A stretch of DNA of 64,000 nucleotides. Origin: Bacteroidota bacterium (GTDB taxonomy: Bacteria; Bacteroidota; Bacteroidia; JACCXN01). A program made the position numbers and the translations under genes. The stretch spans positions 1 to 64,000 of the forward strand of contig JACCXN010000081.1 of assembly GCA_013696965.1 (NCBI GenBank). The letters are read 5' to 3'. Shown here piece by piece: positions 23,147 to 24,156 of this stretch (the stretch's first letter is position 1; every line of letters begins with the position of its first letter). Below the pieces are notes generated by a model, which saw only the letters and a list, made by a program, of their open reading frames with translations, had not been told where the DNA came from and did no database searches.

Positions 23147-23397
23147 TAATGCAGTTGCTCTAGCTGTTTAAAGAGTGTAAATTTAATAAAATTCATTAAG
23201 AGATGGATTTCCTTTAATTTATAATTTTCGTAAATTTAGTATTCCTGGTATATATTAACTTTAAAACTACTGGAATCATTTTAGGATGTATTAAAAAAAC
23301 ACTTATCCCCTGTGCGTTTATTGGTTTCCATTTTTGGGGAATGAGTGAAAGGATAATACAAAGGGACCTAAAGAAAAAAAAATAATCAAGAAATGGT

Positions 23398-23775
23398 ATG
23401 ACAGAAAATGAACTTTCCTATAAAATTATTGGAGCTGCAATTGAATTGCATAAAAACTTAGGTCCTGGATTACTTGAATCTGCATATGAAACTGGCTTAG
23501 CCTATGATTTAAAAGAAATGGGATTAAATGTAAAGCAACAAGTTCCAATGCCCTTTTTATATAAGGAGACAAAACAAAATATTGGTTATAGAATTGATTT
23601 GTTAATTGAAAATAAAATATTAATCGAATTAAAATCAATAGAAAATTTAGCGCCCGTGCATTTTGCCCAAACCCTAACCTATTTGAAGTTATCCTACCTG
23701 AAATTGGCATTGCTAATAAACTTCAATACAAAAACATTAAAAGAGGGAATACATCGAATAGTTAATAATCTTTAA
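23398..23775 (+). CDS. GxxExxY protein (PD-(D/E)xK nuclease-like)
   Basis: 125 residues. The name-giving motif is visible as G-LL-E-SA-Y in GPGLLESAYETGL. A PD-(D/E)xK-like core follows: 'YRIDLLIENKILIELKS', with Asp and E-x-K in the right order, and HFAQTLTYLKL. The family is small and common in Bacteroidota; biological role is unclear. Directly downstream lies an array of inverted repeats (23789-24069), so a functional link with those repeats is possible but unproven. Confidence 0.9.
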   Translation: MTENELSYKIIGAAIELHKNLGPGLLESAYETGLAYDLKEMGLNVKQQVPMPFLYKETKQNIGYRIDLLIENKILIELKSIENLAPVHFAQTLTYLKLSYLKLALLINFNTKTLKEGIHRIVNNL

Positions 23776-23788
23776 ACATAAGAACCTA

Positions 23789-24069
23789 AAGTAAAACCCT
23801 CTTTGCATGCTTTGCGATAAACTTTGCGCTCTTTGCGTGAAATTATTAATTGGTCACGCAAAGTGCACTAAGAAAAAAGTTCACGCAAAGAGCGCAAAGA
23901 AAAAAAATTCACGCAAAGAGCGCTAAGAAAAAATCAAGTTTAAACAAAAAGATCTGAAGTAAAACCCTCTTTGCATGCTTTGCGATAAACTTTGCGCTCT
24001 TTGCGTGAAATTTTAATTGTTCACGCAAAGGGCGCTAAGAAAAAATTAAGTTTGCGTCTTTGCGTGAAA
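23789..24069. repeat. REP-like inverted/direct repeat array
   Basis: Seven copies of a ~20-bp motif (TTCACGCAAAGAGCGCAAAG) in alternating orientation. Reverse copies: 23822-23841, 23990-24009 and 24051-24069 (short). Forward copies: 23854-23872 (degenerate), 23880-23899, 23908-23927 and 24020-24039. In addition, 23789-23844 and 23957-24012 are a perfect 56-bp direct repeat, 168 bp apart. Opposed copies can form long hairpins. The array lies between the GxxExxY gene and leuS. Confidence 0.92.
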
Positions 24070-24156
24070 TTTAATATATCAAAATCGTATCGGAGAAACC
24101 CGAATAAAAAAGCATTATTTTGTGTAATTTCACAACCTGATTAAATAAACGAGAAA

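Follow-up and report, generated by a model that had tools for sequence, protein, structure and literature searches.

GxxExxY genes and their flanking heptamer arrays: a possible counterpart of REP/RAYT systems on a different enzyme

The window analysed here, a 64,000-nucleotide stretch of a Bacteroidota contig, carries between ftsX and leuS a small gene of the GxxExxY family followed by a dense array of short repeats. To our knowledge no role has been assigned to this family, and the layout raises the question of whether gene and repeats belong together. An initial annotation had suggested a nuclease with its target or a REP/RAYT-like pairing, and this suggestion is supported by the linkage, genome association and co-variation described below, with any action of the protein on the repeats remaining an inference. 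On balance we favor a reading in which GxxExxY and its flanking heptamer arrays form one genetic unit, a nuclease with cognate interspersed repeats that works like REP/RAYT, in which binding, cleavage and mobility are inferred.

The window protein meets the threshold for membership of TIGR04256 (GxxExxY; E 3e-41, 140 bits against a cut-off of 35) and is a full-length member of PF13366 (PDDEXK_3; E 1e-38), and these are its only domain matches. The annotation of a GxxExxY-like gene followed by a repeat array held, positions included. Residues G22, G24, E27, Y30, D67, E77, K79, Q91 and Y95 are conserved in the GxxExxY protein, with D67, E77 and K79 invariant across 90 sequences, and AlphaFold2 predicts a single PD-(D/E)XK domain (pLDDT 95.6). 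The best Foldseek matches of this model in the PDB were SSO0001 (4ic1), which we take to be a Cas4, and lambda exonuclease, both weak and with no E value below 0.001; Cas4 profiles weakly matched 14 of 19 GxxExxY members, and a PDB sequence search gave no meaningful match. A QxxxY motif agrees with the Cas4/lambda-exonuclease branch. Active-site residues and fold together satisfy placement in the PD-(D/E)XK superfamily, as a model-based prediction with catalytic activity inferred. The protein shares the D...ExK...QxxxY core and predicted fold of the Cas4/RecB/lambda-exonuclease type, but it is a 125-aa protein without added domains, has no noticed CRISPR context and carries its own GxGxxExxY motif.

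One alternative is a defense or adaptation module, in which a Cas4-like nuclease would use heptamer arrays as marks in the manner of CRISPR repeats. The Cas4-like profile and fold matches, and the adjacency of repeats and nuclease, speak for it. Against it, no spacers lie between the repeats, no other cas genes were noticed, PADLOC returned no system match for the window protein, and there is no phage or plasmid bias; we consider it very unlikely. Phage records contained none and viral contigs one relative, so the gene is not phage-borne; plasmids contributed six records. Membership of CRISPR-Cas was rejected on the housekeeping neighbors ftsX and leuS and on the lack of unique spacers.

The basic unit of the array is the heptamer CGCAAAG, present in both orientations as inverted and direct copies, and the window repeat units read TTCACGCAAAG-NN-CGCAAAG (Table 1). 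The 305 bp 3' of the gene contain 12 exact copies of CGCAAAG/CTTTGCG against 0.024 expected from shuffles, and only two more lie in the remaining 63.7 kb of the window. Seven copies of a 20-bp motif in both orientations had been annotated, which held in part: the 20-bp core TTCACGCAAAGNNCGCNAAG has six copies at ≤4 mismatches (plus strand at 23853, 23880, 23908 and 24020; minus strand at 23822 and 23990) and a truncated seventh near 24053–24072, and the true unit is the heptamer. The annotated perfect 56-bp direct repeat with a 168-bp offset held in full (23789–23844 and 23957–24012). This repeat extends to 81 nt at 90% identity, and the extension reaches into the gene's final codons and stop; the second 81-nt copy includes a degenerate image of those codons and therefore looks like a duplicate of the gene's right-hand end plus arm. 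Heptamers of the first 56-bp copy are inverted, as is typical downstream of GxxExxY genes. The plus-oriented units form a hairpin with 23822–23854 (33-bp arms), and folding of the array as single-stranded DNA is far more favorable than that of shuffles (z = -9.1). An Rfam search gave only sub-threshold microRNA-type matches, due to the hairpin shape.

Table 1. Features of the ftsX–leuS region in the window.
Feature	Position	Strand	Details
ftsX–leuS intergenic region	23147..24156		1010 bp; contains gene and array
GxxExxY PD-(D/E)XK nuclease gene	23398..23775	+	125 aa; TIGR04256 and PF13366 matches
First 56-bp repeat copy	23789..23844	+	Right-hand arm; minus-oriented CTTTGCG at 23810, 23822, 23831
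Three plus-oriented units, TCACGCAAAG-NN-CGC(A/T)AAG	23853..23927	+	Starts 23853, 23880, 23908; spacing 27–28 bp
Second 81-nt unit copy	23932..24012	+	168 bp downstream; first ~25 nt resemble gene 3' end and stop codon (90% over 81 nt)
Last plus-oriented unit (24020–24039) and truncated minus-oriented unit (24053–24072)	24020..24072		

Several relatives in which ftsX adjoins leuS have a gap of only ~200 bp with neither gene nor array, and compared with the 1010 bp found here this makes gene and array appear to be an insertion specific to this lineage. The same genome carries a second GxxExxY gene (C93:51417-51764) with long CACAGAG arrays on both sides at a spacing of 3–4, amounting to about two dozen paired copies within 300 bp in a count that also allowed T at heptamer position 4. 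Pattern searches, on which the genome-wide counts rest, found CTTTGCG and CTCTGTG arrays scattered elsewhere in it, many between housekeeping genes.

Linkage between heptamer arrays and GxxExxY genes extends well beyond this locus. The motif was generalized from 30 Bacteroidota-side loci as an iterated C-R-C-(A/G/T)-R-A-(G/T) with starts 8–11 bp apart, and was tested on 80 loci from a separate GTDB scan of many phyla. A strict pair, defined as two same-strand CRCRRAK heptamers (counts marked with a dagger, †, also allow T at heptamer position 4), lay within 500 bp of 63 of the 80 GxxExxY genes against 2 of 80 for the backward control, which confirms the clustering that the initial annotation had proposed as a check. 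A pair was likewise present at 19 of 20 re-fetched discovery-set loci and at 32 of 39 further paralogue loci†, and an array lay within 300 bp at 128 of 147 GxxExxY loci†, leaving about one in eight without. Motif density was 5.7–6.4/kb within 250 bp of the genes compared with ~0.06/kb at 3–9 kb, a difference of about 90-fold, and stood at background beyond 3 kb. An unsupervised 7-mer ranking of near against far sequence placed CGCAAAG, CACAGAG and CGCAGAG on top, at 28–38-fold.

Same-phylum controls set this linkage apart: a nearby pair was found at 28/30 GxxExxY loci of the discovery set, compared with 1/30 four-helix-bundle, 0/30 Y1_Tnp (RAYT-type) and 0/29 leuS loci. These counts bear on the alternative that the repeats are spread by a different enzyme, such as a RAYT/IS200-type transposase, with GxxExxY as a mere passenger. 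Y1_Tnp genes are indeed common, occurring in 176/248 genomes with 12 matches in the window genome, but the heptamer pair is absent from all sampled Y1_Tnp loci and the motif tracks the GxxExxY clade, leaving this explanation with very little support. Array-bearing loci were found in Bacteroidota, Ignavibacteriota, Chloroflexota, Cyanobacteriota, Acidobacteriota, Planctomycetota, Verrucomicrobiota, Thermodesulfobacteriota, Spirochaetota, one methanogenic archaeon and others, several of these loci being on MAG contigs, and the GxxExxY gene lies inside heptamer arrays in at least a dozen phyla other than Bacteroidota. As a separate observation, the gene-plus-heptamer layout occurs on contigs labelled Cyanobacteria, Methanothrix and Roseiflexus (L117, L124, L103, L140 and similar), which suggests wide horizontal spread.

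The repeats also follow the gene at the level of whole genomes. GxxExxY is patchily distributed, being carried by 122 of 248 genomes and absent from 126. CTCTGYG pairs numbered 610 in carriers and 28 in non-carriers (backward controls 8 and 17), and 43 carriers but no non-carrier had three or more (Fisher 6e-16); for CTTTGCG the totals were 915 and 35 (backward controls 17 and 21), with 48 carriers and one non-carrier reaching three (Fisher 1.5e-16). Counts in gene-negative genomes are thus near background. The Fisher values overstate independence because the 248 genomes are related. A single genome can hold up to 101 motif pairs alongside only a few GxxExxY genes. One genome (G024) has 8 CTTTGCG pairs with no GxxExxY gene detected, where the gene may have been lost or a different driver may act. 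In two others (G198 C1:2635991-2636610 and G076 C1:795000-795895) pairs follow one another at intervals of about 300 bp, forming larger tandem element arrays.

Around the gene, the arrays adopt a defined architecture. The nearest array lies a median of 22 bp from the start codon and 21 bp from the stop codon†, and two-sided loci are inverted in 36 of 49 cases† (binomial 1.5e-12 against 1/4). The outer flank of the arrays tends to T-T-A-A-C. The unit measures ~0.5 kb, with TTAAC...GTTAA ends and only the GxxExxY gene between its arms; one locus (L060) has four CACAGAG per arm. The proximity to start and stop codons and the strong hairpins would suit a regulatory explanation, in which the arrays are operators or terminators controlling GxxExxY or its neighbors and the dispersed copies form a regulon. 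Against this, the arrays are often long, repeated, tandemly duplicated and variable between species, palindromic units are dispersed at up to about 100 pairs per genome, and other genes of the same genomes lack arrays. We regard regulation as a highly improbable account of the arrays.

The repeats are also found on their own. Most of the gene-less copies sampled, from two genomes, are intergenic palindromes of ~95–155 bp with the form TTTAAC-CGCAAAG-NN-CGCAAAG...CTTTGCG-NN-CTTTGCG-GTTAAA. At a scpB site followed through one genus, four genomes carry the gene and its inverted arms between the upstream stop codon and the start of scpB, a fifth (L156) has a decayed remnant, and three lack the gene. 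Empty sites in relatives, which the initial annotation had proposed to look for, were thus found at both scpB and ftsX–leuS, as absence of the unit and not as a base-exact junction. No target-site duplication was resolved at the scpB sites or at sites of the gene-less palindromes (MITE sites), and for gene-less elements no empty site was recovered to the exact base, as one relative has the same element and others differ across the whole intergenic region. In-frame stops were seen in 5 of 111 GxxExxY genes (L037, L081, L091, L115, L136) and, with the scpB remnant, are a sign of frequent gene decay.

These features invite comparison with MITEs and insertion sequences bounded by terminal inverted repeats, and the unit meets their criterion of such repeats plus relatives' sites without the element, with the reservation about junctions noted above. 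The short gene-less palindromes have the same outer ends as the unit with the gene; unlike those elements, the unit has no recognizable transposase between its inverted arms (only PD-(D/E)XK), its ends are iterated heptamers and no target-site duplication is established. A stronger alternative holds that the unit is a minimal autonomous transposon or homing-type element with the arrays as ends, in which GxxExxY alone would cut ends or target, host repair or replication would complete the process and gene-less copies would be MITEs. In its favor are the compact unit with inverted arms and shared ends, the sites without it, its patchy distribution and the decayed copies with stops. Against it, GxxExxY copies within one genome share at most 71% nt identity in the sampled paralogues, so no recent gene duplication or transposition is seen in the sample, no target-site duplication is defined, many loci keep their position across a genus, and no lone PD-(D/E)XK domain is known to transpose unaided. 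We judge this alternative unlikely; the lack of near-identical gene copies argues for greater mobility of the repeats than of the gene, and resembles reports for RAYT genes (PMC8266576).

The spelling of the heptamer co-varies with the protein. Mapped onto a tree of 106 proteins, the motif switches class 31 times, compared with 50.3 when shuffled, and none of 200 shuffles was as low; the window protein's clade has mainly CGCAAAG, and that of its C93 paralogue CACAGAG/CACGGAG. In 41 cases a protein had less-similar paralogues in its own genome, and here the motif was closer to that of the nearest homologue from a different genome (distance 1.09) than to those of the own-genome paralogues (1.95; 31 vs 10, p 5e-5)†; the motif therefore follows the protein and not the host. 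Joint inheritance instead of recognition could explain this co-variation. Mutual information between residues and motif gave candidate columns 18, 64, 94, 113, 116, 117 and 122–125, which are confounded by phylogeny and are not evidence. Two outcomes named in advance as refuting the initial annotation, a motif abundant without GxxExxY association and independent inheritance of gene and repeats, both failed to appear, given the enrichment near the gene, the near-absence from gene-negative genomes and the co-variation.

In the REP/RAYT systems (REPIN, REPtron; TnpA-REP) the enzyme is an HUH single-tyrosine (Y1) protein and the REPs are 20–50-nt hairpins, usually GTAG (PMC8266576). The GxxExxY system resembles them in having one chromosomal nuclease-type gene next to short palindromic repeats cognate to it, numerous scattered intergenic copies, inverted doublets among them, co-variation of repeat and enzyme, and scarcity on plasmids; linked gene plus dispersed, co-varying repeats satisfies the works-like criterion. 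It differs in its PD-(D/E)XK fold, its iterated heptamers, its arrays that mostly flank the gene on either side and its several paralogues with different motifs per genome. Membership of the RAYT family itself was rejected: the window protein has no HUH/Y1 domain, Y1_Tnp genes lie elsewhere without heptamers, and GTAG is absent from the most enriched 7-mers near GxxExxY genes, leaving the GTAG-tagged hairpin criterion unmet. The literal REP/RAYT part of the initial annotation accordingly did not hold, since the enzyme falls outside the RAYTs and GTAG-type REPs play no part.

Under the favored reading of one nuclease-plus-repeat unit, the nuclease would bind heptamers iterated about once per helical turn and cleave at the arrays, which are often inverted and hairpin-forming, and cleavage would copy or move array elements into new intergenic sites. 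In the window, a CGCAAAG-type unit would have inserted between ftsX and leuS, its right-hand arm then being duplicated in tandem. A bolder reading, towards which we lean with reserve, is that GxxExxY represents a widespread nuclease-plus-repeat class independent of REP/RAYT, in bacteria and some archaea, with each protein reading its own heptamer spelling and driving the spread of palindromic elements. No prior description was found for the GxxExxY–repeat link, the composite repeat strings or PDDEXK_3 in the literature searched, with most subscription papers outside its scope, and within that literature the system is probably undescribed, a REP/RAYT counterpart on a different enzyme. If correct, this would assign the first function to a common protein family lacking one, explain frequent unassigned intergenic repeats of the CTTTGCG, CTCTGTG and CTCTGCG types, and show that the REP/RAYT problem, the joint persistence of short repeats and a single enzyme, has been solved a second time by unrelated means. 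Because the motif naturally varies with the protein, the recognition code can be tested directly, also on the pair of paralogues in the window genome (CGCAAAG and CACAGAG).

Genes of the four-helix-bundle family (23S rRNA IVP, PF05635) are likewise small, patchy and multi-copy, and some have short inverted repeats of their own, but the protein family is unrelated and the repeat sequences differ. The idea that they share the heptamer repeats was rejected on the single CRCRRAK pair among their 30 control loci. Several four-helix-bundle loci (L205, L192, L200, L204, L201, L199, L183) carry their own arrays, for example AGATTTGAGA/TCTCAAATCT and AGTATCAAGAT/ATCTTGATACTT, often inverted, and may represent a parallel gene-plus-repeat system with an unrelated protein.
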